Part shown: in pieces, positions 720 through 22,094 of the stretch
How positions within the stretch are numbered: the stretch's first letter is position 1
Layout of the letters: each line of letters begins with the position of its first letter
Origin: a virus
DNA: 23,090 bases
Virus record (IMG/VR): IMGVR_UViG_3300031553_000038
Location: 1 to 23,090 of that record
Reading direction: 5' to 3' (one strand)
Position numbers and translations under genes: made by a program
Notes under the pieces: model-generated
What the model was told of the DNA's origin: nothing
Databases searched by the model: none
What the model saw: the letters and a program-made list of their open reading frames with translations, nothing else

Positions 720-819
720 TTTCTGATCTCCTAAATAATGTGGGTTGTTTTGGTGCGTGTATTCTTTCAAAATATGCTTCTGCTTCTAATTTATTCATTT
801 TGTTTGTTTCATCCTCCAT
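706..819 (-). CDS. Tiny ORF, 37 aa, possible leaderless leader gene
   Basis: ATG 819 lies about 27 nt after the centre of a TATA box (843-850, TTTATATA on -), so it could be read from a leaderless transcript. An internal ATG at 798 has GGAGG (813-817) 14 nt upstream and gives 30 residues (MNKLEAEAYFERIHAPKQPT..., ending SEIACN). The frame ends at 706-708 and overlaps the SD-preceded TTG 719 start of the next gene. It may be a genuine small protein, a leader ORF for coupling, or the N-terminal part of a frameshifted gene. No family recognised. Confidence 0.35.
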   Translation of the reverse strand: MEDETNKMNKLEAEAYFERIHAPKQPTLFRRSEIACN

Positions 820-842
820 ACTTACACAATCAACAACAACAA

Positions 843-850
843 TATATAAA
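843..850 (-). promoter_or_regulatory. Archaeal TATA box
   Basis: TTTATATA on the - strand. Its centre is about 27 nt before ATG 819, which is the expected TATA-to-TSS distance in archaea. Predicted to drive the - strand run from 819 towards the window start. Confidence 0.55.
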
Positions 851-954
851 ACTATACGTCACAGAACAGACACATCCAAACCTATGTTTACGAATTTAGC
901 ACCGTAATTAACTGTTTTATTATCGGCGGGTCAGGCACATCAACGTTCCTCAAA

Positions 955-1368
955 CTAAAGTTCTGTTGCAACTGTATCGTCTTTAGGTATAACATATTTT
1001 CCATGTTTTCGTGACTTTTTTCTATGACAAGCAAAGCATAAAAACATCAAATTTTCAGCGTTGTTGTTATGGAAGTCTCCATCTAAATGGTGTAGTTCCA
1101 TTCTATCAGATTTTTGGTTACATTCTTGACAAGTATAATTGATAATGTTTAAAGCAAAACTTCGATATGCTTTGAGGCGATTGTAACAGTTAGTCTTTTT
1201 ACTTATTTTATGTTTATTGTAATATTTTCTGATTGATTTGTAAACACATTTTTTGAAGCAATCGTTACATACAAACCACCGTTTAGGTAATTTAGTCATA
1301 TGATGAGTAAAATTTTCTGAGGTTAATTTAACTCCACAATGAATACAATGAGTTTTAGGTTTTCTCAT
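955..1368 (-). CDS. HNH endonuclease with N-terminal zinc ribbon
   Basis: 137 residues from ATG 1368. CxxC pairs at C8/C11 and C34/C37 form a zinc ribbon. A second pair, C80/C83, precedes the HNH core: HH at 93-94 in ELHHLDGDFHNNNAEN, N106, and CFACH with H115. This is the beta-beta-alpha-metal nuclease of the free-standing homing type common in viruses. A basic, Lys/Tyr-rich linker (38-75) suits DNA binding. The gene is AT-rich compared with the structural genes and appears to have its own TATA box, both typical of a mobile endonuclease gene. It probably nicks or cuts a specific site and spreads by recombination. It resembles the HNH gene at 19958-20515 in plan but is not a copy. Confidence 0.88.
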   Translation of the reverse strand: MRKPKTHCIHCGVKLTSENFTHHMTKLPKRWFVCNDCFKKCVYKSIRKYYNKHKISKKTNCYNRLKAYRSFALNIINYTCQECNQKSDRMELHHLDGDFHNNNAENLMFLCFACHRKKSRKHGKYVIPKDDTVATEL

Positions 1369-1391
1369 AACAATCTCTCTAACAGAAAAAT

Positions 1392-1414
1392 ATTATATAG
1401 AATTATTATTTAAA
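1392..1414 (-). promoter_or_regulatory. TATA-box region for the HNH gene
   Basis: Two candidate TATA boxes on -. TATATAAT (1392-1399) is centred about 27 nt before ATG 1368, which implies a leaderless mRNA. TTTAAATAAT (1405-1414) would instead give a roughly 15-nt leader. Confidence 0.45.
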
Positions 1415-1459
1415 CGAACCGTTTTAAGAAAACTCCCGCGCTTTTAACTAAAGAAAGAC

Positions 1460-1499
1460 TGTGTTTTTGTTTGTTTCAACGTTGTGTTTTTGTTTGTTT
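1460..1499. repeat. Two 17-bp direct repeats
   Basis: TGTGTTTTTGTTTGTTT at 1460-1476 is repeated exactly at 1483-1499 (period 23, 6-bp spacer). A fourfold CTTTT tract follows at 1509-1528. The region between the HNH and HTH genes (1369-1578) otherwise holds only T-rich, low-complexity DNA. Confidence 0.7.
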
Positions 1500-1559
1500 G
1501 TACTAAAACTTTTCTTTTCTTTTCTTTTAAAGACTACACCAACAGGTGAAAGGAATATC

Positions 1560-1566
1560 AAAAAAA
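1560..1566 (-). terminator. T7 tract downstream of the HTH gene
   Basis: Seven consecutive T on the - strand, 13-19 nt after the HTH stop codon. U-rich tracts alone can terminate archaeal transcription. The (CTTTT)n region on + reads A-rich on - and does not add to it. Confidence 0.35.
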
Positions 1567-1578
1567 GAGAACATCTGC

Positions 1579-1860
1579 TTATGGGGGTCTTTCAGCCTCG
1601 CCACATAACCATGCAATCCACTTATCCATCAGATTCAACAATGTTTGGCGCCTTAAACTGGATGTTCTACGTCTTACTAGGTTCGGCAGTTTTCTATTCG
1701 AAAATCTTCTGAGTACTCCTAAGGATTCGGCGTTTTTGATGACACGGTGAACTTCAGAGAGTGACCTGCCGAAGGCTTCTGCGATGTGATTCATGCTTAC
1801 GCCTTGTCTGCGGATTTTGATTATTGCAACTCGTTCTCTTTGCAGAAAAGGAATTTTCAT
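1579..1860 (-). CDS. Helix-turn-helix transcriptional regulator
   Basis: 93 residues from ATG 1860. Residues about 8-50 form a helix-turn-helix: RERVAIIKIRRQGVSMNHIA, then EAFGRSLSEVHRVIKNAESLG, with the usual turn Gly (G20) and a recognition helix around SLSEVHRVIKN. The C-terminal half is Arg-rich and may extend DNA contacts. There is no effector domain, so it is a small repressor or activator. It is transcribed away from the divergent control region, which carries a 14-bp palindrome, so that region is the natural target. No SD is visible upstream. A TTAAAAAA-type box near 1885-1892 would suit a leaderless start. Confidence 0.75.
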   Translation of the reverse strand: MKIPFLQRERVAIIKIRRQGVSMNHIAEAFGRSLSEVHRVIKNAESLGVLRRFSNRKLPNLVRRRTSSLRRQTLLNLMDKWIAWLCGEAERPP

Positions 1861-2007
1861 GATAAATGATTAGTTGATTATATCCTTTTTTAAGGGCTTT
1901 TATCTAAATAATTGATGCTCGGTATACAAAAAATTTTTTCTCTATTTCTTCGATAATATCTTTGAGATGCTGTTAATCCATTTTCATCTCTTTTAGCATT
2001 AACCATA

Positions 2008-2021
2008 AATATCATGATATT
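2008..2021. promoter_or_regulatory. 14-bp perfect palindrome, likely operator
   Basis: AATATCATGATATT is self-complementary over 14 bp and ends 14 bp upstream of the TATA box at 2036. The position suits a dimeric regulator, probably the HTH protein encoded next door. That partnership is an inference. Confidence 0.5.
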
Positions 2022-2035
2022 AAACGATTAAAGAG

Positions 2036-2043
2036 TATATAAA
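2036..2043 (+). promoter_or_regulatory. Archaeal TATA box for the predicted small RNA
   Basis: TATATAAA preceded by a purine-rich BRE-like AAAGAG. Transcription would start near 2063-2066, at the first hairpin of the predicted RNA. Confidence 0.55.
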
Positions 2044-2062
2044 ATGTTTGGACTAACACTTT

Positions 2063-2130
2063 ACACCTGTTTGAAGGTGGCTACCAGAAATAAGTAGACT
2101 CATTGTAGAGTCTACCTCCACATTTTTTTA
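2063..2130 (+). ncRNA. Predicted ~65-nt structured small RNA
   Basis: A good TATA box (2036-2043) points to a start near 2063-2066. The transcript would fold into hairpin 1, CACCT (2064-2068) with AGGTG (2075-2079), and hairpin 2, GTAGACTC (2094-2101) with GAGTCTAC (2108-2115), and end in T7 (2123-2129). No ORF is present. Between the last stem and the T tract lies CTACCTCCAC, which contains CCTCC, the same word as the anti-Shine-Dalgarno end of 16S rRNA. It could therefore pair with SD sites, but this is speculative. An upstream leader or attenuator of the + operon is the alternative. Confidence 0.45.
2094..2129 (+). terminator. Hairpin plus T7 terminator
   Basis: A perfect 8-bp stem (2094-2101/2108-2115) with a 6-nt loop, followed 7 nt later by TTTTTTT. 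No + strand gene precedes it, so it most likely ends the small transcript that starts near 2063. Confidence 0.5.
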
Positions 2131-2164
2131 TTTACTTCAACTTTTTAGAGTAAACTATAGAACA

Positions 2165-2176
2165 TTTTAAATATAA
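2165..2176 (+). promoter_or_regulatory. TATA box of the + strand operon
   Basis: TTTTAAATATAA predicts a start near 2199 and a leader of about 90 nt before the TTG start at 2288. A second, weaker box (GTATATG near 2195) would give a leader of about 65 nt. The leader can form GTGAA/TTCAC pairing. Confidence 0.4.
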
Positions 2177-2287
2177 CCTTATTCTTTAAACTCTTGTATA
2201 TGTCATGGTGAAGACATAGATAGTCGAGACACTTTCACGTCGCCGAGCGTGCCCTATTTAGACTACGGCATCTCTGGGAGGATTATC

Positions 2288-2581
2288 TTGTCAAACAAAA
2301 GAAGCAAACAAGCAAGAAAACGAAAAAAAGAATTACAACAAGAAAGAAGCCGTAGACAAGAAGAACTTGAGACAGCACACTCCATCGTTTTAAGGTACAG
2401 CTGGAGAGATAAACAAAAAATCATAGGCGAACTGGTTTACAGGCCAGAAAACGTTGATATTATAGAACAAAAACTTAAAATGCAATTCAAATATATCCCA
2501 AACCACGCTTTAAATCACGATTTTGGCGAAGTGCTTAACTTATTTCGACTAAAAGCACCACCAATTCACACTTATGTTTAG
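2288..2581 (+). CDS. Small basic hypothetical protein, 97 aa
   Basis: The start is taken at TTG 2288 because GGGAGG (2276-2281) is 6 nt upstream. An in-frame GTG at 2249 lacks an SD. The first 30 residues are extremely basic (SNKRSKQARKRKKELQQERS), then a mixed helical part follows (residues about 33-97, ending KAPPIHTYV). The basic tail suggests binding to nucleic acid or to the inner membrane surface. No family recognised. It is the first gene of the GTPase operon. Confidence 0.65.
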   Translation: MSNKRSKQARKRKKELQQERSRRQEELETAHSIVLRYSWRDKQKIIGELVYRPENVDIIEQKLKMQFKYIPNHALNHDFGEVLNLFRLKAPPIHTYV

Positions 2582-2585
2582 GGTT

Positions 2586-2605
2586 CTCTTAGATAATTAA
2601 GAGAC
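2586..2605. promoter_or_regulatory. Intergenic hairpin before an SD
   Basis: TCTCTTA (2586-2592) pairs perfectly with TAAGAGA (2599-2605) around a 6-nt loop. It lies between the first and second operon genes, just ahead of AAGGAGGTGAG. It could be an mRNA processing or stability element. There is no T tract, so it does not look like a terminator. Confidence 0.35.
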
Positions 2606-2628
2606 AAGAAGGAGGTGAGAAAGAAAAA

Positions 2629-2973
2629 ATGCCAACAGTAAAAAAGAAAATGTCAACAAGCGCATACATACTAATAGCATTAATGATAATCACAGTTGTT
2701 TCCTTACCGATACTTCATGTTGTTGGCGTCTTAGACCTATCCTTTATTGGGATAGGATTCGAAAATATACTAATGTGGGCTGCAACTGACACACTCAACG
2801 GAGTAATATTGATTGGAGGCGTTTTTGTAGGAGGAGCACTATTCTTTTACATCGTAAAAACATATCTTCTCGGCACACAAATATCAACAACCACTGTAGG
2901 ACAATATAATCCGATGGGGCAACAAATAAGTCAACCACAGCAACAGGAACAAGAAACGGTTGTGAGTGACTAA
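2629..2973 (+). CDS. Two-TM membrane protein with Gln-rich tail, 114 aa
   Basis: ATG 2629 follows a strong SD (AAGGAGGTGA). Residues about 12-33 (YILIALMIITVVSLPILHVV) and about 56-80 (NGVILIGGVFVGGALFFYIV) are two hydrophobic spans. The start is Lys-rich (PTVKKK) and the tail after residue 82 is polar and Gln-rich (QQISQPQQQEQETVVSD). This predicts an integral membrane protein with both ends on the same side, probably cytoplasmic by the positive-inside rule. Its stop TAA overlaps the ATG of the GTPase by one base, so the two are translationally linked and it is a plausible membrane anchor for the GTPase. Confidence 0.75.
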   Translation: MPTVKKKMSTSAYILIALMIITVVSLPILHVVGVLDLSFIGIGFENILMWAATDTLNGVILIGGVFVGGALFFYIVKTYLLGTQISTTTVGQYNPMGQQISQPQQQEQETVVSD

Positions 2974-4058
2974 TGGTTTTTAATGCTCTCAAAGATCTCA
3001 TAGGATACGAACCCCCACAACAAAACCAAAAAAGCAACATGGGAGACCTCTTAGACATAGAAGCAGACAAAAACCTGCTAACAATGATAGGAACAATGGG
3101 AGCAGGAAAAAGCGCACACCTAGGCGGATTACTCATAGCAGCAGACCGCAAAGTATCAAAAAGCAGAGGCACAGAATACCCATTCAGATACTTCATAGAC
3201 GAAGGAAGCAGCAACATAGAAAACGACAAATCAGCCCTACGCGCTGGACATTTCCCACCCAAAACCGGACTAATGAAAGCATCCACAGTGGAGCCTGCCG
3301 CAACCTTCGAGTGGAGCCACGTCAAATACTTAGCTGGCAGAGAAATAACTCTATCAAAAAGCCAAGCAAAAATGAGTATCGCAGACATGGCAGGAGAAGA
3401 CCTCGTAAACCTTATAGAGCAAGTTAACCGAACACGCACACTGCAGCAAGCATCTAAACTAAACATGAACAAGTCAATCAATCTAGTCTGCAACAGCTCC
3501 GCATTAATGTTAATCATCAAAGCAACCCGAGCGCAAGGCTTAGAGATTGAATTAGAAAAGGAACCTACAGGTATCGATGGATTAAGCATCTACAGTGACG
3601 CTAACCTAACCCGAATAGTGAAGGGCATAGTAAGATTTAAGAGACAAAACCCCAACTCCCCCAAACTCAAAAACCTATGCATAGTCGTCACAGCATGGGA
3701 CGGACTCGCACCCGTGGCAAAACAAATAAGCCAAATAACCGGACAACCATTCGATCCCCTAGACACAAAAATGAGCGCAGAAGCCCTAGACAAATTCGTT
3801 TACGCATTCTATCCATCCACACACGCCACAATCCACAGCCTCGGACTAAGCAACATCAGATATTTCCCTAGTTTCTTTGAAATAGAACGCGACAACAAAG
3901 GTAACCCAATATGCTGGGATAAGGGCAGCAGCCCAAAGATTAAGCGCCCAGAAATCTTTGATCGTGGCCGTAACTGGGAAGATAATGTGAACACAATAAA
4001 ATCTAGTGAGTTCTGGTTCTTCAAGGAACTGGATTGGCTACAGGAGCTAGCAAACTAA
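2973..4058 (+). CDS. TRAFAC-type P-loop GTPase (DO-GTPase-like)
   Basis: 361 residues. Walker A/G1 is GTMGAGKS (40-47). G3 is DMAGE (138-142), preceded by hydrophobic residues. G4-like TAWD (240-243) follows the strand LCIVV. The stretch GHFPPKTGL (92-100) and the DxxGE form resemble the 'double-GTPase' (DO-GTPase) group of TRAFAC GTPases known from bacterial conflict-type operons with GTPase-associated proteins. I infer membership from motif spacing, with no search behind it. There is no TM segment. The gene is flanked by single-base overlaps with a two-TM protein gene and a 49-aa gene, and is followed by membrane-anchored proteins, so it probably switches a membrane complex. An ATPase is possible because the G4 motif is not a canonical NKxD. 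Confidence 0.75.
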   Translation: MVFNALKDLIGYEPPQQNQKSNMGDLLDIEADKNLLTMIGTMGAGKSAHLGGLLIAADRKVSKSRGTEYPFRYFIDEGSSNIENDKSALRAGHFPPKTGLMKASTVEPAATFEWSHVKYLAGREITLSKSQAKMSIADMAGEDLVNLIEQVNRTRTLQQASKLNMNKSINLVCNSSALMLIIKATRAQGLEIELEKEPTGIDGLSIYSDANLTRIVKGIVRFKRQNPNSPKLKNLCIVVTAWDGLAPVAKQISQITGQPFDPLDTKMSAEALDKFVYAFYPSTHATIHSLGLSNIRYFPSFFEIERDNKGNPICWDKGSSPKIKRPEIFDRGRNWEDNVNTIKSSEFWFFKELDWLQELAN

Positions 4059-4207
4059 TGAGTGAACTTGAAGAATACAAAAACACTCAATCGCAAGAAA
4101 TTGAAGACTTCTTGAACAAGGCTCGTGAAGACATAAACAAAGAATGTGGTTGCAAAGTTATGCCCTACAAAGCAGACGTTAGATTTCTTAGGGTGAAAAA
4201 AAAGTGA
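4058..4207 (+). CDS. Small hypothetical protein, 49 aa
   Basis: ATG 4058 overlaps the GTPase stop (TAATG), and the TGA at 4205-4207 overlaps the GTG start of the next gene. The product is charged and helical at the N-terminus (MSELEEYKNTQSQEIEDFLN), then has CGC at residues 32-34 and a basic end (RVKKK). Tight overlaps on both sides make it a credible operon member. A small adaptor between the GTPase and its neighbour is possible, but this is a guess. Confidence 0.65.
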   Translation: MSELEEYKNTQSQEIEDFLNKAREDINKECGCKVMPYKADVRFLRVKKK

Positions 4208-4602
4208 AGTCTGGTCAAGTCGTAACAGGAATCATAAACGGCATCGCGGACCAATACGAAACCCCAGACATCCTACAACTACTCCCCAACGGCAAACTCG
4301 CACAGCTCATAGATCGAGAAACCCTAGGCGCCTACAGGCGCGTATTCGTCTCTGACAGGGTAGTAGCGCAGACAATGGTTACCAAATCCGAACCAGACGA
4401 GCACGGCAGAGACGGAATAGTGAACCACACAGTCCTCTACAAATTCGATGCCTCCACAACACACGATAACATACAATACGTTTTCGATTATAACCAATTC
4501 ACAGATGACGCTTTAGCTGGCAAATACGCTTTCGCTATGCCTCCAATACCCGAACTGAAGCATCCTCTAGACCCGCCACCAGAAATGGAGATAACACCAT
4601 GA
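4204..4602 (+). CDS. Possible GTPase-associated protein (GAP1-N-like), 132 aa
   Basis: GTG 4204 lies after an AGGGTG SD and overlaps the preceding stop. The core at residues about 58-80 (TKSEPDEHGRDGIVNHTVLY) has the form D-x2-GR-x-G-x-V-x-H-[TA]-hydrophobic. That recalls the N-terminal domain of GTPase-associated protein 1 (GAP1-N), found beside DO-GTPases in bacteria. Its position two genes after the GTPase fits. The rest is an alpha/beta domain with no TM segment, and the Pro-rich C-terminus (HPLDPPPEMEITP) may be a linker. The homology is remote and from memory of the motif, so the family call is tentative. The gene itself is solid. Confidence 0.6.
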   Translation: MKSGQVVTGIINGIADQYETPDILQLLPNGKLAQLIDRETLGAYRRVFVSDRVVAQTMVTKSEPDEHGRDGIVNHTVLYKFDASTTHDNIQYVFDYNQFTDDALAGKYAFAMPPIPELKHPLDPPPEMEITP

Positions 4603-5021
4603 AACAAAGATTCTGGCTCATAGTAGGCGCCATATTATTCATCTTATTTATTGTGGTAGTGGCAGCAGCCTCCAACACTAGCACAAACCAAAGCAGCACC
4701 CAATATCGACCCGATCCAAAATATAAAGCCACAATAACCGCAGACACAGTAGGACTAGATTTCATAGTAATCACAAACGAAAACATACCCGCACAAAAAA
4801 TAGTGTTACCCCAAGCCTTACCCTACACCATGAACTTCGCAAAAGATGACATACTCACATTCACAGTACACACAAAAGACGGGTACAGATTTAACAGCTT
4901 TGACTTAGGAGATGGAACATTCAGAAGCGACAATCCAATGGCAACAAAACCAAACAAAAACTTTCAGATACATGCTTGTGTAATGCCAGAAGACGTGATA
5001 CCTTGGGACATAACCCAGTAG
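4599..5021 (+). CDS. Single-TM anchored exported protein, 140 aa
   Basis: The start overlaps the previous stop by 4 bp (ATGA). One strong N-terminal hydrophobic segment (residues about 5-24, FWLIVGAILFILFIVVVAAA) is followed by a Ser/Thr/Asn/Gln-rich linker. A beta-rich domain with regular hydrophobic alternation follows (FIVITNENIPAQKIVL, DILTFTVHTKDGYRF). This predicts a signal-anchor with the domain outside the cell membrane. No enzymatic motif. As part of the GTPase operon it may be the external arm of the complex. Confidence 0.7.
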   Translation: MKQRFWLIVGAILFILFIVVVAAASNTSTNQSSTQYRPDPKYKATITADTVGLDFIVITNENIPAQKIVLPQALPYTMNFAKDDILTFTVHTKDGYRFNSFDLGDGTFRSDNPMATKPNKNFQIHACVMPEDVIPWDITQ

Positions 5022-5030
5022 ACTCTTCGT
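5021..5030 (+). repeat. GACTCTTCGT motif, copy 1 (+)
   Basis: It begins at the last base of the stop codon of the upstream membrane gene, in a 28-bp gap before the next gene's SD. Confidence 0.7.
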
Positions 5031-5049
5031 CACTTAGAGGACTAAACAA

Positions 5050-5568
5050 ATGCTCAAAACCATACTAATAATTGCACTCATAGTAGCAGCCGCATTCTCA
5101 GGGCTATTAATCTGTGCTTACATCCTCAAAGTAGAATTCGCCATAAACCTTATGGACACCATCAAAGAACCATTCACTAGCCTATCTGTAAACAAATTAA
5201 ACTTGGGAACCATAGCCTCAGGCGCCTCAGTGGCAACCGCAGCCACCACCGCCCTCGGCTGGATAAAAACCAACAAAGAAAAAGCCCTAGCCATGAAAGA
5301 CAACGCACAGAAGCAACTAGAAAACAGCGGCTTACTCGAACAGGTTGAATCTGTCAAAGACGCAAAAACACAGCTAGAAGGACAAATCACAGAAATAACC
5401 AAAATCAAAGACAACGCATTGGCAGAGGCAGAAGCCGCAAAAAACCAACTCAGCCAACAGACAGAGGAGCTGCAAAAAGCACAAAACACCATAGACACAC
5501 TCCATGATACTCTTCGCAGAAACAAGCTTACCGACGGAGAATCCATCGTGAAAACAGTTATAAAATAA
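5050..5568 (+). CDS. Membrane-anchored coiled-coil protein, 172 aa
   Basis: ATG 5050 follows GAGGA. Residues about 4-27 (TILIIALIVAAAFSGLLICAY) are a TM helix. A second weakly hydrophobic, Ala/Thr-rich stretch lies at about 53-70 (GTIASGASVATAATTALGW). Residues about 74-160 form a long Ala/Glu/Gln/Lys coiled coil (QLEGQITEITKIKDNALAEA, then EELQKAQNTIDTL). The product predicts a membrane protein with an extended helical rod. Tape-measure proteins also combine coiled coil and TM segments, but this one is far too short and is not in a tail module. It probably oligomerises within the GTPase membrane module. Confidence 0.7.
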   Translation: MLKTILIIALIVAAAFSGLLICAYILKVEFAINLMDTIKEPFTSLSVNKLNLGTIASGASVATAATTALGWIKTNKEKALAMKDNAQKQLENSGLLEQVESVKDAKTQLEGQITEITKIKDNALAEAEAAKNQLSQQTEELQKAQNTIDTLHDTLRRNKLTDGESIVKTVIK

Positions 5569-5584
5569 AATTGGAGAAAACAAC

Positions 5585-6058
5585 TTGAACCTCAAAAACT
5601 GGTCCCTCCAAATTTGGGCACTCATAGCAATCCTAACCCTAATAGGCTCAATCGGAGCAATCTACGTCTACGGCACATACTTCGCCGAACCCACACAAAT
5701 CCCCACAGGCGGAACAATCGAGCCCACAGAGTCAATACTTCTCGCCAACCCGTCAATCATCGACTGGGGCAACATCATCGTCTACAACAACGTCACCAAA
5801 ACCGTAACCCTGAAAAACAACAGCAGCAACATCTACGACAAAATCGTAGACATGACCTTCGAAACCGCAAACTGGCAGAATATAACAGACCTCGGCTTAA
5901 CTCTAACATGGAACTACACGGGCACAGACATCTACCCAACAGACTCCAGACCCATAGCATTCACCCTAACCTCAGAAACGGTCCCCGAAGACGAAACAAC
6001 CACAACCTTCAGCTTCGACATACTCGTCACCCCTATAATGCAAGGAGACTCTCAGTGA
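5585..6058 (+). CDS. Single-TM surface protein with Ig-like beta domain, 157 aa
   Basis: TTG 5585 is supported by GGAG 10 nt upstream and by the signal-anchor that follows (residues about 8-33, LQIWALIAILTLIGSIGAIY). After a Pro/Thr linker the domain reads as an Ig/cadherin-like beta sandwich typical of archaeal surface proteins (IDWGNIIVYNNVTKTVTLKN, ending TFSFDILVTPI). Several N-x-S/T sequons (NNVT, NNSS, NWQNIT, NYTG) are compatible with N-glycosylation outside the cell. Its stop overlaps a GTG start by 3 bases (GTGA). A role at the cell or virion surface is inferred. Confidence 0.7.
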   Translation: MNLKNWSLQIWALIAILTLIGSIGAIYVYGTYFAEPTQIPTGGTIEPTESILLANPSIIDWGNIIVYNNVTKTVTLKNNSSNIYDKIVDMTFETANWQNITDLGLTLTWNYTGTDIYPTDSRPIAFTLTSETVPEDETTTTFSFDILVTPIMQGDSQ

Positions 6059-6177
6059 ACCTCAAAAAACTGTTCTTCTGCAAACTTCTCCACTGGCACA
6101 GCTACGCTACATACTACAACTATGCCACAGGCAAAAAATGGAGACAATGCATAGACTGCGGAAAACAGCTAGACTAA
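6055..6177 (+). CDS. Tiny zinc-knuckle protein, 40 aa
   Basis: GTG 6055 overlaps the previous TGA. The product is MNLKKLFFCKLLHWHSYATY..., ending WRQCIDCGKQLD. C9, H14 and H16 plus the CxxC at C33/C36 look like one zinc site. Small proteins with C-x4-H-x-H...R-x-C-x2-CG occur often in phages and archaeal viruses, function unknown. It starts with the same MNLKxx residues as the gene before it. Confidence 0.6.
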   Translation: MNLKKLFFCKLLHWHSYATYYNYATGKKWRQCIDCGKQLD

Positions 6178-8969: not shown

Positions 8970-10241
8970 ATGCCGACTGGATTCAGAACCCAAGCAGGAC
9001 AACTAATCTCCCTGCAAGAAAAATTCAGGGGCTACTTCGCAACAGGACAACCCACCCACAGACGAAAAAAAATACACCTCGGCGAATACAGCTGGCGCAA
9101 ACGCTGCCAATACGCAGAACAAATCGTACAACAGCACCCCCTAGCCAAATCTCAAATCCTAACCATAGCAGGACAACTCATGGCAGACGGAGTATTCACA
9201 GAAGCAGCGTACACTGAGGGACCGCACAAACGCAGAGCAGAAGAAGCCAAAGACCACATCGACGAACTCAACAAAAAAATAGGACTCGACACCCTACTAT
9301 TCGACACCGCAACAGACATGGCAAAACTGGGCAGCTGCTTCTGGGAAAAAACCGAAACCCCAATCACCGACGTGCAAAGATTCACCCAACAGCAAACCAT
9401 AGAACCCGCAGAACAGGACATGAACGGCAACATAACCCGATGGCGCCAAAACAGCACAGAATGGACAACAGACAACATCATGCACTTCCCATGGAACATA
9501 ACCGCAATCACATGGCCCTACGGCACTACCCTCTTCAGCGGACTCGGCCTAGTCTTCGAAATACTGGAACAACTTCAAGTGGACGTGCAGGAGTTCATGC
9601 ACCACGCAGCCTTCCCCTTCGAACTATGGCAGGTAGGCGAAGGACAATACGTCCCACAGGGCACAGAAATAAGCAGCATCAGAAACGCCATAAAAAACTG
9701 GGAACCCGGAGAACACCACGTCACCAGCTACCCCATCGAATTGAAAACAGGAGGTACAGGCGACAAAACCATAACCAACCTCAACGAAATCCTAGACTTC
9801 CTCTACAACGAAGCCATAGATGGACTCATGATCCCTCCCATATCTAAGCAGTGGAGCAGCACCATGGCTTCAGCGCAGGAGATGCTGCCGTGGGCGCGCG
9901 CCAACCTCATCCAGCCCATGCAGCGGATAATCAAACGCAAAATCGAAAACGAGTTGTACACGCCCTATCTTGAGAGTCTCGGTTACAGTGTGAAGGTTTG
10001 TCCTCGCCTGTCGTTTGAGGCTCCAGACGCGCACAAGTTAGATGACATGGAGTACTGGATGGGGGCTGTGCAATCGAATATTGTACCTGCCGAGTATGCC
10101 GCGGAACAGCTTGGCTTTGATTTAGAGAAGATTAAGCGGTTACGTGACGAAGAGGCTCAGAGGCAGGCAGAGCAGATGCAGTACATGAAGGTACGGCAGC
10201 CACAGGGAGAGCCGAGTGAAATTAATGCTGACTCTTCGTGA
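8970..10241 (+). CDS. Portal protein
   Basis: 423 residues. The protein is helical with a wing region and a central domain. FPWNITAITWPYGTTLFSG (about 172-190) and the stretch DGLMIPPISKQW (286-297) followed by ARANLIQPMQRIIKRKIENE (about 310-329) match portal features: crown and clip, with the long stem helix leading into 'L..P..r.i...ie..l'. Position between TerL and a MuF protein is decisive. The portal forms the ring through which DNA enters. It is short for the family. The gene ends in Asp-Ser-Ser-stop, encoded by GACTCTTCGTGA, and overlaps the MuF gene by 26 nt. The start is a TATA-spaced ATG with only a weak AGGT SD. Confidence 0.88.
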   Translation: MPTGFRTQAGQLISLQEKFRGYFATGQPTHRRKKIHLGEYSWRKRCQYAEQIVQQHPLAKSQILTIAGQLMADGVFTEAAYTEGPHKRRAEEAKDHIDELNKKIGLDTLLFDTATDMAKLGSCFWEKTETPITDVQRFTQQQTIEPAEQDMNGNITRWRQNSTEWTTDNIMHFPWNITAITWPYGTTLFSGLGLVFEILEQLQVDVQEFMHHAAFPFELWQVGEGQYVPQGTEISSIRNAIKNWEPGEHHVTSYPIELKTGGTGDKTITNLNEILDFLYNEAIDGLMIPPISKQWSSTMASAQEMLPWARANLIQPMQRIIKRKIENELYTPYLESLGYSVKVCPRLSFEAPDAHKLDDMEYWMGAVQSNIVPAEYAAEQLGFDLEKIKRLRDEEAQRQAEQMQYMKVRQPQGEPSEINADSS

Positions 10242-15728: not shown

Positions 15729-16880
15729 ATGACAATGAACCTGAAAGAAATCCTAGACGCAACCAAACCAAACCGCCAAGCAATCGGACGCTGCATGGAA
15801 CAGACAAAACCGTTCTTCCACCCCGAAGACGCAAGCATCTACACGGGACTTAAACAGCAACAGCAAAACGACATCCAAGAATACCTGACCAAAATCCCAC
15901 TCAAACGGCTAGTCGAAAAACTGGCAAGAGAAGACCCAAGCCTAAAAGAGTACCTCGGACACAGCGGAGCACTAACCACAGGAGCCACAGGAGAAGCAGG
16001 AGCCAACTACCTGCTGCCCGACAAAATCTACGCTGAACTCTTCGAAAACGCAAGATGCGCAGACATCACCCCAATCGTCAGCAACGTCGTAGACACACCC
16101 GGAGCAACACTTAAAATCGACGTAGAAAAAGACGGCACATTCAAGCCCCACTTCGGAGCATCAGGCGGAGAAGCCCCAGACGAAACAATAGAAACCGCGC
16201 AGGGCACCATCACCCCAAGACTCTTCAGCATCAACATAGGCGTAACCAACGAAATGATAGAAGACAGCCTCTTCGACCAGATGGAAACACACGTCAGAAT
16301 CGCAGGCAAAGCCATGGGCGAATGGAGCACCAAAATGTGCCTCTTCCCCATCATGGAAGACCACAGAGGAACAACAACCACATTCAGGGTCGAAGGCGCA
16401 TACAACGGCGTGAACAGCGGAGGCGCAACAACCTTCGACATCTCAGACGTGCTAGAAGCAGAAGGCGCAAACTCAACAGACGGATTCGACACAACACACC
16501 TGATCATACCCCCACACGGACCACAAACGCTATTGCTGGGAGCCGCAGGCTACCCGCACGACTGGACAAAACTGAAAGACGTAGTCAACCTATCCAACAA
16601 CCCCATAGCAAACATCTGCGGAATCGACGTAGTCAGAGTCAAACACATAACCACATCCGACACAAGCGACGAAACAAGCTACATCGCCGGACTCTACGCC
16701 ACAAGCTGGCACGCACTTGCAGTCAACAAAACCTACGGCATCCAAACCGTCAGGAAGCGGTGGCTCAAAATCGAAAACTACAGCGACCCCATCAGAGACT
16801 TGGTCGGCGCAGTCGTATCCGCACGGCAGGGACACCTAGTAGCCTACGCAGACGCATGCTGTGTAATCAACTACGCATAA
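15729..16880 (+). CDS. HK97-fold major capsid protein, copy 1
   Basis: 383 residues; AGGAG SD. The N-terminal helical region (1-75) is a likely delta/scaffold-like arm. LTTGATGEAGANYLLPDKIY (79-98) is the start of the HK97 core. INIGVTNEMIEDSLFDQMET (about 163-182) is the spine-helix entry typical of the fold. The P-domain and A-domain follow, with a late VRKRWLKIENYSDPIRDLVG. It forms the icosahedral shell. It is clearly paralogous to the next gene, sharing the order and wording of these blocks. Confidence 0.88.
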   Translation: MTMNLKEILDATKPNRQAIGRCMEQTKPFFHPEDASIYTGLKQQQQNDIQEYLTKIPLKRLVEKLAREDPSLKEYLGHSGALTTGATGEAGANYLLPDKIYAELFENARCADITPIVSNVVDTPGATLKIDVEKDGTFKPHFGASGGEAPDETIETAQGTITPRLFSINIGVTNEMIEDSLFDQMETHVRIAGKAMGEWSTKMCLFPIMEDHRGTTTTFRVEGAYNGVNSGGATTFDISDVLEAEGANSTDGFDTTHLIIPPHGPQTLLLGAAGYPHDWTKLKDVVNLSNNPIANICGIDVVRVKHITTSDTSDETSYIAGLYATSWHALAVNKTYGIQTVRKRWLKIENYSDPIRDLVGAVVSARQGHLVAYADACCVINYA

Positions 16881-16965: not shown

Positions 16966-18090
16966 ATGTTAAACATAAAAGAAGCAGTAGACAAAACGCG
17001 ACCACAACTAGCCAAAACAAAAGAATTCATGGAACAGCACAACTACTTCGACCCCCAACAATGCAACATCTACGCTGGACTCAAACGCAGCACACAACGC
17101 GAACTCTCAGAAACCCTACACAAATGCACGCTCCGCGACCTACTGAAGGGACTAAGCAAACGCGAACTAAAAGGACTCAAAGAGTTTCTGCCAACCGCAG
17201 GCGGACTAACCACAGGATCGCTCGGCACCGCAGGCGCACAGTACCTAGTTCCCACATGGATGAGCCAGAAACTGTACGCAGCAAGCACAGGTACAGACAT
17301 CGTGCCCCTAATCAGCGCAGACGTGTTTGAACCCAGAGGCGGCGACTGCACAGTCCCCATTGGCGTACTAGCCACCCAACAACTAGGCGAAGGAACAGTG
17401 GCACATGAAACAGTCAACGCAGACGCTGCAACAATAAAGCTGGTGAAAATCAGCGCCCCCATAGTCGCAACCAACGAGATGATAGAGGACACCGAGTACG
17501 GCTTAATCGAATGGCACATACAGAAGGCAGGCGAAGCCATGGGACGCACAGGCGGAAACCTAGCCCTCAATGTCCTAAAAACAGCCACAGACGGTTACGG
17601 TACAGTAGTAACTGGAGCGGCAAGTGCTTCTGAAACAAAACCAAACGAAATACTGGATATGTTCGAGGAAGTAAGCCGAGGGGACAGCGTCATCCAACCA
17701 GTCTGCGACACCATGATAATCACTCCAGAAGCATGGAGCCACAGCGCGTCAGGCGTAGAAGTGGCAGGAGGAACAGCAGGAGACTTCTGGAGAGGCGAAC
17801 CAATCACCCAACGAAGTCCCGCACAAGGATTTACCCTTGTCTACCACGGCATGGACACGCTATTCAGTGGATCAACAAGTATATGCACAGGCGGCGGAGG
17901 CGCAGCCATGACAGAATGCAAAACTATAGTGTTCGACAGAAAGCAAGCCATGGTGACTGCACGCAAGAACTGGCTCAGAATCGAAGACTACAGCAACCCA
18001 GTCATGGACTTGGCGGGCGCAATCGTTTCTGGCAGACAGGACAGCGTCACGGTTGTAGACTGCGCGATCGGAGTGGTGACAGAGGCATAA
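16966..18090 (+). CDS. HK97-fold major capsid protein, copy 2
   Basis: 374 residues; GAGGTGA SD. The same plan as the preceding gene: EAVDKTRPQLAKTKEFMEQ versus EILDATKPNRQAIGRCMEQ at the N-terminus, LTTGSLGTAGAQYLVPTWM, ISAPIVATNEMIEDTEYGLI, and KNWLRIEDYSNPVMDLAGAI near the end. Overall divergence is large, so the duplication is old or the two were combined from different viruses. Both look intact. The second copy may form pentamers, a minor part of the shell, or an alternative capsid. Confidence 0.85.
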   Translation: MLNIKEAVDKTRPQLAKTKEFMEQHNYFDPQQCNIYAGLKRSTQRELSETLHKCTLRDLLKGLSKRELKGLKEFLPTAGGLTTGSLGTAGAQYLVPTWMSQKLYAASTGTDIVPLISADVFEPRGGDCTVPIGVLATQQLGEGTVAHETVNADAATIKLVKISAPIVATNEMIEDTEYGLIEWHIQKAGEAMGRTGGNLALNVLKTATDGYGTVVTGAASASETKPNEILDMFEEVSRGDSVIQPVCDTMIITPEAWSHSASGVEVAGGTAGDFWRGEPITQRSPAQGFTLVYHGMDTLFSGSTSICTGGGGAAMTECKTIVFDRKQAMVTARKNWLRIEDYSNPVMDLAGAIVSGRQDSVTVVDCAIGVVTEA

Positions 18091-18800: not shown

Positions 18801-19067
18801 ATGGTGGTGAATCAAAAAGTGACTGAGTTGAGAGCGGCAACAATTGAAGTTTCAGCACGTTGGCTTAAAGACATTTTGCTTGGAGCGAAAAAACCATACA
18901 AATCCAATATTCCAGAAGACATACAAATCTTTGATGTTCACTATGACAGTCGCCGTCATGTTTATAGTTTTGTTGGAATAAGCGACGAATTTGATGTTGT
19001 TCCAGAAGGAATGACTATCCCGTCTTTCATTCCGACTTACGAAATAATAGACGGTGACTCTTCGTGA
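18801..19067 (+). CDS. Hypothetical protein, 88 aa, flanked by inverted motif copies
   Basis: It has its own TATA box and no SD, so it is probably leaderless. The product (MVVNQKVTELRAATIEVSAR, then WLKDILLGAKKPYKSNIPED...) is a small alpha/beta domain with a helix followed by strands (IQIFDVHYDSRRHVYSFVGI). It ends GDSS-stop, encoded by GACTCTTCGTGA, and overlaps the GTG of the glycosyltransferase. Inverted copies of the motif sit at both ends of the gene, as if it were a mobile cassette. AT-rich compared with the next gene. Function unknown. Confidence 0.65.
   Translation: MVVNQKVTELRAATIEVSARWLKDILLGAKKPYKSNIPEDIQIFDVHYDSRRHVYSFVGISDEFDVVPEGMTIPSFIPTYEIIDGDSS
19056..19065 (+). repeat. GACTCTTCGT motif, copy 6 (+)
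   Basis: It spans the stop/start junction of the 88-aa gene and the glycosyltransferase gene. The surrounding 17 nt (GGTGACTCTTCGTGACT) are identical to copy 7. Confidence 0.75.
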
Positions 19068-19918
19068 CTCAGCAAATCGAAAAACAGCCCCAACCACAAA
19101 AACAGAAGCATCCCCGCATCTTCATAGGCATACCTACTGGCCCTCCGAAATTATACAGTACCTACATCATGGTAGCCGCACTCGCAAACCTCGACTACGA
19201 CAACTACGAAATCCACTGGGCAGTCACAGGAGGATACGACAACAAGCTCTTCGGCGACTTCAAACGTAGACTCAAAAAACTCAACGAAGCAGTCAAATGG
19301 CCCGACAACGTCACATGGCACATCCACTACGTGCCACTCAGCAAAAAAGAGCGCATGACCCGATACCAACCCATCCTCAGAAACAAAACAGTCCTCAGAG
19401 ACGCCTTCCTAGACACCGACATCCCCTACTTCCTGCTGCTGGGCGGAGACAACCCTCCCCCACGCAACGCCATCCACAGATTACAGAAAGCCGACGCGGA
19501 CATCAGCATCGGACTCTGCTACCAGCGCCCAAACGTAGACCAGAGATGCGGCACCTACCCGCTTGTGTGGCGCTACGCATGGATGCCGCAGGAGCTAGAG
19601 AAGTTCAAAGACGAGCTTGACCCGCTTGTGCTGGATGAGCTTCGGCTGGCGTGGCTTCACTGCCCCGTCATGATTCCCCTCATGTTCGACCCAAACTGGA
19701 AACGCAAACGGACAGTCTGGGGCATCACAGGCGGCGACGGCTGCGCCCTAATCAAACGCAGGGTGCTGGAGATGATTGACTGGGGCGTCACGCCCGACAA
19801 CGCGTACCACAGCGAAGACATCCACTTCATGACTCTAGCGTTGTGGCACGGCTTCACAACAGCCTGCGCCGTAGACTTGCACATCCCACACTTTGATGCT
19901 GATGGTAAAGCCTACTAA
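19064..19918 (+). CDS. GT-A-type glycosyltransferase (family-2-like)
   Basis: GTG 19064 overlaps the upstream stop; 284 residues. IFIGIPTGPPKLYSTYIMVA (19-38) is the nucleotide-sugar-binding start. FLLLGGDNPPP (123-133) stands where GT-A enzymes have the metal-binding Asp motif. ADISIGLCYQR (145-155) follows. SEDIHF (250-255) matches the late acidic pair (ED) near the catalytic base. There is no TM segment, so the enzyme is cytoplasmic. It probably transfers a sugar to a virion protein, host glycan, DNA base or lipid; the acceptor cannot be told. It is G+C-richer than its neighbours, and it leads a group with radical SAM and methyltransferase genes. Confidence 0.8.
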   Translation: MTQQIEKQPQPQKQKHPRIFIGIPTGPPKLYSTYIMVAALANLDYDNYEIHWAVTGGYDNKLFGDFKRRLKKLNEAVKWPDNVTWHIHYVPLSKKERMTRYQPILRNKTVLRDAFLDTDIPYFLLLGGDNPPPRNAIHRLQKADADISIGLCYQRPNVDQRCGTYPLVWRYAWMPQELEKFKDELDPLVLDELRLAWLHCPVMIPLMFDPNWKRKRTVWGITGGDGCALIKRRVLEMIDWGVTPDNAYHSEDIHFMTLALWHGFTTACAVDLHIPHFDADGKAY

Positions 19919-19925
19919 CAAAGAT

Positions 19926-19933
19926 TTTATATA
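19926..19933 (+). promoter_or_regulatory. TATA box for the second HNH gene
   Basis: TTTATATA is centred about 28 nt before ATG 19958, with no SD between, so the mRNA is likely leaderless. Confidence 0.55.
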
Positions 19934-19957
19934 CAACTTCGCATTGCATTAAATATC

Positions 19958-20515
19958 ATGCCTTACAGAATAACAGATGGAAAAAAAGTTCAATGCACCC
20001 ACTGCAATCAATTCATGTTGTCTGCAGCAAAAAAAGGTAGAACAATTTGCAAACATTGTCATAAACCATTCATCTTTAATAAGGAACTCTTCTTAAGAAA
20101 AACAAGAGAGTATGCTCATAAACCTGATGTGTACAAACGACGCAAAAAATGGGAACATGACAATCGTAAGCATCTTGCAGAACAAGCATTAAAACGCTAT
20201 TATAAAAAACATGACCATATAAGAAAACTTAACAATCTGGCTACTGCAAGAGCGAGAGGAGTTTCAGCAATTCCTATTGATGGACCTTGTGAAATATGTA
20301 ATCTTAAAAAGAACAAAATGTCTCGCCACCATCTATTGCCAAAATATGCGGGTGGAAAAAACACACGCCAAAATTTGGTTCGATTATGTAACAAACATCA
20401 CCAACAACTAGAACAAAAAGCCAAAAAAGAGCTAATTTTGGCGTTTCCAAACGAATATTTTGCCATAGGGCAGAAAATATTAATGGAGATGAAATCTAAT
20501 TTTAGACCTACATGA
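19958..20515 (+). CDS. HNH endonuclease with N-terminal zinc ribbon
   Basis: 185 residues. The zinc ribbon is C13/C16 plus C31/C34. The basic, Lys/His/Tyr-rich helical region (45-100) probably contacts DNA. The HNH core is C111/C114, HH at 124-125 (SRHHLLPKYAGG), N139 in TRQNLVRLC, and CNKHH (144-148). The gene is AT-rich, has its own TATA box and separates the glycosyltransferase gene from the radical SAM gene, with its stop overlapping the latter's ATG (ATGA). This is what a free-standing homing endonuclease insertion would look like. Same plan as the gene at 955-1368. Confidence 0.88.
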   Translation: MPYRITDGKKVQCTHCNQFMLSAAKKGRTICKHCHKPFIFNKELFLRKTREYAHKPDVYKRRKKWEHDNRKHLAEQALKRYYKKHDHIRKLNNLATARARGVSAIPIDGPCEICNLKKNKMSRHHLLPKYAGGKNTRQNLVRLCNKHHQQLEQKAKKELILAFPNEYFAIGQKILMEMKSNFRPT

Positions 20516-21456
20516 ATTTCTTGACAACCCCCCATTTCCAAAATTCATACAGTTTGAGACAGAACAGCTACTTTCCGTGGCTTTCCTCAAAAAACACTGT
20601 ATGTAACGCACGGTGCCTCATGTGCCCACACGACAAAATGGAGAAACGCCCACAAGCGCCGTGGAGTCTAATCTCAAAGATAATCCGCGAAGTCGCACCC
20701 AAAGTCGACGCGGTCTGCCCCTTCCTCATGCAGGAACCCACCCTCGAACCCCGCCTAGTCCCAATCCTAGCCAACATCAAACAACGCAACCCAGCCTGTC
20801 AGACAATCGTCTACAGCAACATGAACCACCTCCCTGACACAACAATCAAAGGCATAGTAGACACACAAATCCTCGACGAACTCCATATCAGCTTCTACGG
20901 ACCAACCGAAGAACTATACAGGAAATGGCAGCCCCCACTAAACCGAGAACGCACAATCATCAACATCAAAAAATTTTACCTCTACAGGCAACTAACCAAA
21001 CGGCTCAAACCAAAAATAACCCTGCACGTACTATCTGTGCCAGAAATCATGGATGCAATAGCAGGATACGGCGACGTCACAAGCTACGTTGACACAGTCG
21101 CAAACGTGCAGTACGACACCTTCCATGGCGACATCCCAGACCTAGCAGGCGATCAAACACGATACATGGGCAAGCCAGCCCCGCGTGTGCCCTGCCAGCG
21201 GCTGTGGACGGGAATGAACATCCACTCAAACGGCAACGTGGTGCCCTGCTGCATCGACTACAACGACGAATACGTCCTCGGCAACGTAACTGAACAATCA
21301 GCAGAGGAGGTGTGGAACAGCCTCGAATTCGCCAAATTCAGGAAACTGCACACAGAGGGCAGATGGAACGAAATCCCCATGTGCAGACGCTGCAGAGTAC
21401 ACGAGTACCAATTCAACAAAGAATGGACAAATTGGTGGCTAAACAAAGGTGAATAA
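20512..21456 (+). CDS. Radical SAM protein with SPASM-like domain
   Basis: 314 residues. The [4Fe-4S] radical SAM motif is CNARCLMC (C31, C35, C38). MQEPTLEP (73-80) matches the GEP motif that contacts SAM. The C-terminal auxiliary cluster region has C228 (VPCQRLW), CC at 246-247 after HSNGNVVP, a YVLGNVTEQSAEEVWNS stretch (254-270) and CRRC (291-294), as in SPASM/twitch enzymes. Such proteins modify peptides, sugars or lipids by radical chemistry. The substrate is unknown. Iron-sulfur chemistry fits an anaerobic host. The ATG overlaps the HNH stop, and the N-terminus may have been altered by that insertion. Confidence 0.88.
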   Translation: MNFLTTPHFQNSYSLRQNSYFPWLSSKNTVCNARCLMCPHDKMEKRPQAPWSLISKIIREVAPKVDAVCPFLMQEPTLEPRLVPILANIKQRNPACQTIVYSNMNHLPDTTIKGIVDTQILDELHISFYGPTEELYRKWQPPLNRERTIINIKKFYLYRQLTKRLKPKITLHVLSVPEIMDAIAGYGDVTSYVDTVANVQYDTFHGDIPDLAGDQTRYMGKPAPRVPCQRLWTGMNIHSNGNVVPCCIDYNDEYVLGNVTEQSAEEVWNSLEFAKFRKLHTEGRWNEIPMCRRCRVHEYQFNKEWTNWWLNKGE

Positions 21457-21458
21457 AA

Positions 21459-21602
21459 GTGTCTGAAAGCGTTAAAATTATGACATTAACAGGACACACA
21501 TATTTGATTCCTAAAAATGTTGCAGAACAATTGAAGAAAACGGGACGATTAGATGGACCATGTGAAACAAATTTAGCTTATTCATGTGGTGACTCTTCGT
21601 GA
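21459..21602 (+). CDS. Small hypothetical protein, 47 aa, ending GDSS
   Basis: GTG 21459 has AGGTG 8 nt upstream and lies just after the radical SAM stop. The product (MSESVKIMTLTGHTYLIPKN, then VAEQLKKTGRLDGPCETNLA...) ends CGDSS-stop, and the stop overlaps the GTG of the next gene. The DNA is AT-rich. The short beta-hairpin plus helix resembles an AbrB/SpoVT half-domain in rhythm (TGHTYLIPKNVAEQL), but this is weak. It may be a peptide substrate of the radical SAM enzyme, given its small size and adjacent position; untested. Confidence 0.55.
   Translation: MSESVKIMTLTGHTYLIPKNVAEQLKKTGRLDGPCETNLAYSCGDSS
21591..21600 (+). repeat. GACTCTTCGT motif, copy 7 (+)
   Basis: It spans the stop/start junction of the 47-aa gene and the 101-aa zinc-finger gene, in a 17-nt block identical to copy 6. 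Confidence 0.75.
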
Positions 21603-21904
21603 CTAAACAGAAAATAATCTACAGCCAAGTGCTCGAAAAACTCAGCCTGCCGCCGGACACAGACAAGGTTAAACGATGCAACTTCTGCGGCAACCTGCTT
21701 CACCTAATCAAAGTCAACGACATCGTCGGCTTCTGGGTACACAAAGGAGAGGACGTGCAGAAGTGTGGAGAGACAAACAAGATGTATCCGGGTAAGCCCA
21801 TGATAGTTCAGAACATGAACTTTTACCGCGAGATGAAAAACATCTGGATGGGAATAAGACAGGCAAAGGAGAACAGAAAAGATGGTGGGAATCCCAAAAA
21901 TTAG
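21599..21904 (+). CDS. Small zinc-finger protein, 101 aa
   Basis: GTG 21599 overlaps the previous stop. CNFCG (C27, C30) with a later H/C pair (WVHKGEDVQKCG) forms one probable zinc site. The C-terminal part is helical and basic (YREMKNIWMGIRQAKENRKD). The last 23 nt overlap the next gene. No family recognised; a nucleic-acid or protein-binding role is plausible. Confidence 0.65.
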   Translation: MTKQKIIYSQVLEKLSLPPDTDKVKRCNFCGNLLHLIKVNDIVGFWVHKGEDVQKCGETNKMYPGKPMIVQNMNFYREMKNIWMGIRQAKENRKDGGNPKN

Positions 21905-22094
21905 CGAATACAATCGCAGTTGCCTAAACTGCCACTGGTTCCAATTCAACCCAAAACGTCCCGCAAGACTCAACAGAGAATGCTGCTACCCCGGCAAAGT
22001 CACAACCAAACGAGGAGTCTGCATGATGTGGAAGGACACACGCACACTCTGGCAACGGCTGCGCGGAGAAAAAATAATGAAGGCATTCTGTTGA
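21882..22094 (+). CDS. Cys-rich small protein, 70 aa
   Basis: ATG 21882 follows AGGAG at good spacing. CLNC (C14, C17), then CC (34-35) and C47 in TKRGVCMMW give a four-Cys cluster, for zinc or possibly Fe-S. The C-terminus is basic (LWQRLRGEKIMKAFC). It overlaps the methyltransferase start (TTGA). Similar four-Cys proteins occur in archaeal viruses, function unknown. Confidence 0.6.
   Translation: MVGIPKISEYNRSCLNCHWFQFNPKRPARLNRECCYPGKVTTKRGVCMMWKDTRTLWQRLRGEKIMKAFC

Follow-up and report, generated by a model that had tools for sequence, protein, structure and literature searches.

A Virus-Borne Gene Cassette Predicted to Encode a Divergent DO-GTPase, a Stand-Alone GAP1-N2 Domain and Dedicated Membrane Proteins

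The IMG/VR viral record IMGVR_UViG_3300031553_000038, an entire linear record of 23,090 bases that was analyzed at its full length and is called the window here, carries a cassette of small genes whose 361-amino-acid (aa) product is very probably a DO-GTPase with all nucleotide-binding residues kept, and whose 132-aa product is very probably a stand-alone GAP1-N2 domain, as judged by comparisons of sequence profiles. Two dissimilar viruses have both proteins together with the same four membrane proteins. DO-GTPase/GAP1 systems are described from bacteria and a few archaea, and were predicted in 2020 to serve as conflict switches (PMC7159879). Those of the GAP1-N2 type are membrane-associated and have fast-evolving FNIII or beta-sandwich partners (PMC7159879). 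This paper alone treats these systems in the literature found, and its passages on them report no viral copy; likewise, the main text of a survey of Bathyarchaeia viruses mentions no GTPase. An original prediction, made from the sequence of the window, had read the genes at 2288-6177 as a 'reduced, viral, membrane-linked version' of such a system, which proved to be a fair description of the cassette. Our findings suggest that viruses captured and reshaped a cellular DO-GTPase switch so far described in cells only.

The 361-aa protein resembles archaeal DO-GTPases

The GTPase motifs that the original prediction had listed are present in the 361-aa protein: GTMGAGKS (residues 40-47), ADMAGED (137-143) and TAWD (240-243). 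The first of these is a Walker A motif of the TRAFAC type, and the second contains the Walker B glutamate (DxxGE) that is a defining feature of DO-GTPases (PMC7159879). Sequence searches of Pfam, PHROGs, NCBIfam, PADLOC and PDB were indecisive taken alone. The window protein matched a single Pfam family, DO-GTPase1 (E 0.0052), which also ranked first for its 61% identical homolog (E 0.013) from G001 (IMG/VR 3300034123_000008, 37,395 bases), but the scores of 16.5 and 15.3 bits, respectively, miss the gathering cut-off of 27. Because this cut-off is a curatorial threshold, our claim is that of a divergent member of the family. The PDB hit among these searches, EvpC (E 0.0049), was judged to be due to chance, and it weakened to 0.076 when a profile was used.

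Comparison of profiles with hhalign gave a far stronger signal. The viral GTPase profile matched 12 archaeal DO-GTPases with a probability of 96% (E 2.6e-9, score 69, 245 columns), whereas the controls scored at most 24.6 (100 column shuffles), 24.7 (reversed query), 19.8 (EF1A) and at most 17.9 (other window proteins). In the joint alignment, all 14 sequences share G40, G45, K46, T98, D138, G141 and D243, and 13 of them have E142. The viral GTPase also has in common with the Thermoproteota proteins a conserved threonine behind a GxFPxxT-like stretch, and its TAWD is aligned with TQWD of one Asgard member. The reference sequences pass Pfam cut-offs (PF19975, PF19993 and PF20013) with the exception of some Asgard GAP1-N2 rows, one of which lies marginally under the cut-off and another of which has no Pfam match. 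Such references are sparse: PF19975 was above cut-off in 5 of 227 Asgard genomes, and PF20013 (GAP1-N2) in 3 of 398 Thermoproteota genomes.

The earlier assignment of the 361-aa protein to the DO-GTPases is thus upheld, and the profile searches point to no other ATPase family. A search of 257 Bathyarchaeia, 350 Nitrososphaeria-class and 222 Asgard genomes with the viral GTPase profile turned up no confident cellular relative; a single 58-residue match (E 0.003) was obtained. The gene differs only by synonymous changes from that of L002, a close relative of the window; G001 is a more distant third contig.

The 132-aa protein resembles an isolated GAP1-N2 domain

A Pfam scan to E 1 yielded no match for the 132-aa protein or for its G001 homolog. 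The D-x2-GR-x-G-x-V-x-H motif noted earlier in this protein is there, as DEHGRDGIVNH at residues 65-75, and it lies within the best-conserved stretch of the viral proteins, TKSEPDE[HY]GR[DV]GIVNHTV. This stretch resembles the most conserved part of GAP1-N2, which reads RVAVALVRDAGLDHVGRSILLTHTL in an Asgard sequence (locus L103) and IAYSIVKNMGIGYDGRRGTLYNHTF in one from Thermoproteota (locus L110). Moreover, the similarity spans the domain, including the GR-x5/6-HT motif. The viral profile matched eight archaeal GAP1-N2 sequences with a probability of 85% (E 6.3e-6, score 38.8, 113 of 132 columns), compared with scores of at most 18.2 for 100 shuffled queries and at most 16.2 for all other window proteins. 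Even the window sequence by itself, used without a profile, scored 30.9. A relationship to GAP1-N had been anticipated from the sequence of the window, and the profile-profile comparison bears this out for GAP1-N2.

The result depends on the composition of the reference set. Against the five Asgard sequences alone the match was weak, with no meaningful alignment at first and a later best alignment on the motif (E 0.079), and it became clear once three Thermoproteota sequences joined them. The assignment therefore leans on eight reference rows. Independent support comes from gene position, since a GAP1 gene is expected downstream of a DO-GTPase gene and the 132-aa gene lies right behind that for the GTPase; a 49-aa gene alone intervenes in the window, and the two genes are directly adjacent in G001. 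The viral protein (132 or 134 aa) stops where GAP1-M would start, so that the middle and C-terminal domains of GAP1 are absent. Because only the N domain is present, we regard the pair as a reduced variant and not as a canonical DO-GTPase/GAP1 member. The ratio of nonsynonymous to synonymous substitution rates (dN/dS) of the 132-aa gene is about 0.26 between the window and L002.

Organization of the cassette and its membrane proteins

The features of the cassette are as follows, with transmembrane segments abbreviated TM and open reading frames ORF.

2249..2581, plus strand: basic, helical 110-aa ORF at the cassette head (start may be TTG at 2288); an ORF of similar character lies at the same place in G001, with homology between the two not established
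2629..2973, plus strand: two-TM protein, 114 aa, with a Shine-Dalgarno-like GGAGGTG upstream; predicted N-in/C-in; 41% identical in G001
2973..4058, plus strand: probable DO-GTPase, 361 aa; P-loop G40-x4-GKS47, T98, D138-x2-GE142, TAWD243
4058..4207, plus strand: charged 49-aa protein, optional; no counterpart in G001
4204..4602, plus strand: probable stand-alone GAP1-N2 domain, 132 aa; motif D65-x2-GR69-x5-HT76
4599..5021, plus strand: TM-beta protein, 140 aa; N-terminal TM 5-23, then a beta domain
5050..5568, plus strand: TM-coiled-coil protein, 172 aa; TM 5-23, possible weak second TM at about 52-71, coiled coil 72-170
5585..6058, plus strand: TM-Ig-like protein (immunoglobulin-like), 157 aa, TTG start; TM 10-28, beta-sandwich-like domain
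6055..6177, plus strand: zinc-ribbon-like 40-aa ORF with CxxC; 100% conserved in L002; cassette membership uncertain
4480..5210, no strand: allelic replacement block relative to L002; about 60% DNA identity

All of the tightly spaced or overlapping plus-strand genes that had been proposed at 2288-6177 were found, although they number nine ORFs, not eight. Stops and starts overlap by 1-4 bases at 2973, 4058, 4204-4207, 4599-4602 and 6055-6058. We consider the genes to be real because the changes relative to L002 are mostly synonymous and because gene order is kept in G001. In both the window and G001, the cassette sits upstream of the genes for the small terminase subunit (TerS), which has a winged helix-turn-helix, and the large subunit (TerL).

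Hydropathy indicates that the 114-aa protein has two TM segments and that the TM-beta, TM-coiled-coil and TM-Ig-like proteins each have one near the N-terminus. The latter three had been described as single-TM proteins with external domains. The N-terminal TM segments were found in each, but the C-terminal parts are external by presumption only, and the TM-coiled-coil protein has, in both the window virus and G001, a second, weaker hydrophobic stretch followed by lysines. Its coiled coil may therefore be cytosolic. Two sub-threshold family matches were obtained with the G001 proteins: an InlB-type B-repeat in the TM-beta protein and, in this relative only, Big_3_5 in the TM-Ig-like protein (E 3.7e-6). 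No FNIII match, a component of GAP1-N2-type systems, was found among the cassette proteins.

Relatives, allelic exchange and accessory status

As had been asked of related genomes, the neighborhood is conserved. A six-gene order (two-TM, GTPase, 132-aa, TM-beta, TM-coiled-coil and TM-Ig-like) recurs in the otherwise dissimilar virus G001, with identities of 41, 61, 47, 32, 26 and 25%, respectively. Conservation between the two viruses is thus highest in the cytosolic GTPase (61%) and lower in the membrane proteins (25-41%). The remainder of G001 matched the window in tblastn searches only in a short gpF-like segment, zinc-ribbon stretches and an HNH-like protein, and its portal belongs to another family. 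With so little else in common, the cassette is conserved far better than the surrounding packaging and head genes.

The comparison with L002 reveals a sharply bounded difference. DNA identity is about 99-100% from 2200 to approximately 4480, falls to about 60% as far as approximately 5210, and is mostly 94-100% from there to approximately 7100. The replaced block of about 730 bp covers the last third of the GAP1-N2 domain, the whole TM-beta protein, and the TM and outer loop of the TM-coiled-coil protein. Positive selection on the TM-beta protein was considered and rejected, as dN/dS is about 0.18 with dS saturated. Given this low ratio, we attribute the difference to replacement by a distant allele and not to rapid point change. 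The extent of the block is consistent with its parts forming one physical unit, which a single tract cannot prove.

In the proviral contigs of Bathyarchaeia whose terminases are closest, with TerL 46-63% identical, the region ahead of the terminase holds ordinary small genes and none of the cassette. This absence beside related terminases, together with the lack of a GTPase match in 257 Bathyarchaeia genomes, argues that the cassette is accessory, mobile and exchanged between virus types. Searches for further viral homologs with several seeds returned L002 and G001 only. The window proteins had no tblastn match in 50,697 phage records, nor did the archaeal DO-GTPase and GAP1-N2 queries. In 72,556 plasmids, neither the G001 GTPase nor the archaeal GAP1-N2 query gave a match.

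The virus and its likely host

The window codes for a terminase large subunit, a portal, two HK97-type capsid proteins and further head genes, and hence represents a tailed virus. Its TerL shares 65% identity with one from a Bathyarchaeia genome over almost the entire length and 48-49% with others, whereas identity to phage records is no more than about 30% among the matches listed. There were no TerL matches in 200 genomes of Nitrososphaeria (the class of G010). A prohead-protease-like gene (30% identity) is common to the window and one of the TerL-related Bathyarchaeia contigs. The host suggested by these relatives, most likely but not proven, is a member of the Bathyarchaeia, which are uncultured archaea.

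The two HK97-type major-capsid-like genes lie in tandem (15729-16880 and 16966-18090) and their products are 30% identical to each other (BLASTP E 6e-40), so a two-protein capsid is possible. After the head module, positions 19064-22756 hold genes for a putative glycosyltransferase-like protein (which has no family match), an HNH-like protein, a radical SAM/SPASM protein and a methyltransferase. The window also contains seven exact copies of the 10-mer GACTCTTCGT, at 5021, 10230, 15063(-), 18536(-), 18788(-), 19056 and 21591. With at most one mismatch there are 15 copies, against 1.05 expected, and none of 100 shuffles reached 15. Several copies form a gene end (GACTCTTCGTGA, encoding D-S-S-stop) directly ahead of the following start, and L002 has an exact copy at a different gene end (4420). 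The pattern suggests a gene-boundary element dispersed through this viral genome.

A possible role for the cassette in virus exclusion

We tentatively propose, as a reading that we hold at somewhat less than an even chance, that the cassette is a mobile accessory module with a reduced, membrane-coupled DO-GTPase/GAP1-N2 switch whose role is to exclude competing viruses. The TM-beta and TM-Ig-like proteins would display their beta domains outside the cell, and the state of these domains would be passed through the TM segments and the coiled coil to GAP1-N2. The latter would set the nucleotide state of the DO-GTPase, which would then alter how the two-TM and TM proteins assemble in the membrane. 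The envelope would thereby be changed, late in infection or in a carrier state, such that competing viruses are blocked from entry or from completing infection (superinfection exclusion).

Several observations weigh against this proposal. That the beta domains lie outside was deduced solely from the N-terminal charge and the hydropathy, and a search for an effector domain gave no family match in Pfam, NCBIfam, PHROGs or PADLOC. There are three viral sequences per protein in total, two of them from close relatives, and AlphaFold2 models built from 2-3 sequences were too poor for use (predicted local distance difference test scores of 44 and 37). A contiguous recombination tract does not require its parts to interact. 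Finally, the site right upstream of TerS/TerL in both viruses suggests late expression, which also suits egress.

Indeed, the strongest competing explanation, which we nevertheless consider rather unlikely, is an egress or envelope-remodeling module in which a membrane/coiled-coil complex, driven or timed by the GTPase, opens the archaeal envelope. The best argument for it is genomic: the cassette opens the late region and directly precedes TerS/TerL in both viruses, a location that some phages use for their lysis genes. This reading would also account for the four membrane proteins, and no other lysis gene was recognized in the window. However, the cassette contains no lytic enzyme, and its absence beside the terminase of related proviral contigs indicates that it is no general requirement of this virus group. 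In addition, DO-GTPase/GAP1 systems are described as conflict switches (PMC7159879). We favor a conflict between viruses over a general egress machine because the cassette is accessory, has been exchanged among viruses, and has membrane-side parts that evolve faster or are replaced.

A counter-defense decoy, in which the viral GTPase, along with the isolated GAP1-N2 domain, would bind to a host DO-GTPase/GAP1 defense and block it, appears improbable. Reduction of GAP1 to its N domain is what would be expected of a dominant-negative protein, and archaea do carry full systems, one of them next to a RelA/SpoT-type gene. A decoy has no need of four co-inherited membrane proteins, however, and the GTPase motifs are intact and strongly conserved; with GAP1-N2 passing in only 3 of the 398 sampled Thermoproteota genomes, there would also be few hosts to block. 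Least probable is that the TM proteins are virion or entry components with the GTPase serving assembly: the cassette adjoins packaging and head genes, and beta and Ig-like domains are common on virions, but G001 keeps the cassette despite different portal and capsid sequences, and no PHROGs structural-family similarity rose above noise.

Whatever its role, the chances seem to us evenly balanced that the cassette represents a new class of virus-encoded, GTP-driven membrane switch, namely a captured archaeal DO-GTPase/GAP1-N2 pair that was stripped to the GTPase and the N domain and coupled to an exchangeable envelope sensor. If true, this would add a first viral example to these conflict systems and offer a minimal model of GAP1-N2 regulation of a DO-GTPase. 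The GTPase and the GAP1-N2 domain may form the smallest core that still works, so that the mechanism of the switch can be tested directly on two small soluble proteins. The cassette is also a candidate membrane-based means by which archaeal tailed viruses interact with a host or with competitors.

Comparison with cellular systems and known exclusion modules

The archaeal loci that supplied reference sequences differ in form. Asgard loci follow the textbook layout: DO-GTPases, most of them in pairs, and then a large GAP1. Three of these (L102 8476-14001, L103 10279-12599 and L104 7339-13063) lie in divergent orientation to an operon that encodes two small, basic proteins of helical character and a Vps4-like AAA ATPase, accompanied by a subtilase in two of the three. 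The basic proteins are ESCRT-III-like by eye only and gave no match to Pfam Snf7; a link of DO-GTPase systems to an accessory membrane-remodeling cluster is possible. At L103, a protein encoded downstream of GAP1 (819-4814) has a C-terminal PLD-like domain (PF13091, E 4.6e-16) and is a plausible effector.

Thermoproteota loci, which Pfam confirmed, instead have a compact pair in which a 292-327-aa DO-GTPase is directly followed by a 355-602-aa GAP1-N2 protein (L109 9093-11108, L110 290-3825 and L111 7478-9521). The DO-GTPase of L109 (about 9093-10100) is broken, with its P-loop part in another frame than the rest, and is a pseudogene or reflects a sequencing error. A RelA/SpoT-domain protein (E 3.8e-20) adjoins the L109 pair, and its C-terminal part resembles, by eye, that of a protein that occupies the corresponding site in L110 but is otherwise different, which suggests that these neighbors are exchangeable effectors on a common adaptor domain. 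The compact pairs are like the cassette in that a GTPase of approximately 300 aa is directly followed by GAP1-N2, with [KR]xGxFPxxT and GRxxxxYNHT-like motifs similar to those of the virus. They differ in the greater length of GAP1 (355-602 aa) and in their neighbors, which include a RelA/SpoT protein and a second variable protein but none of the viral TM proteins.

Compared with the DO-GTPase/GAP1-N2 systems in PMC7159879, the cassette is alike in its Walker B glutamate, in a GAP1-N2 domain directly downstream, in membrane-linked, fast-evolving beta-domain partners and in a mobile neighborhood. It differs in being virus-borne, in having the N domain alone as its GAP1, and in a single GTPase that lacks a zinc ribbon. 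In place of an FNIII repeat protein, tubulin, HSP70 or an enzymatic effector, it has four small dedicated TM proteins.

The cassette also resembles the superinfection exclusion modules of phages and archaeal viruses in being accessory, membrane-located and exchanged between viruses. Known modules of this kind use small membrane proteins or CRISPR mini-arrays, and to our knowledge none has a DO-GTPase.

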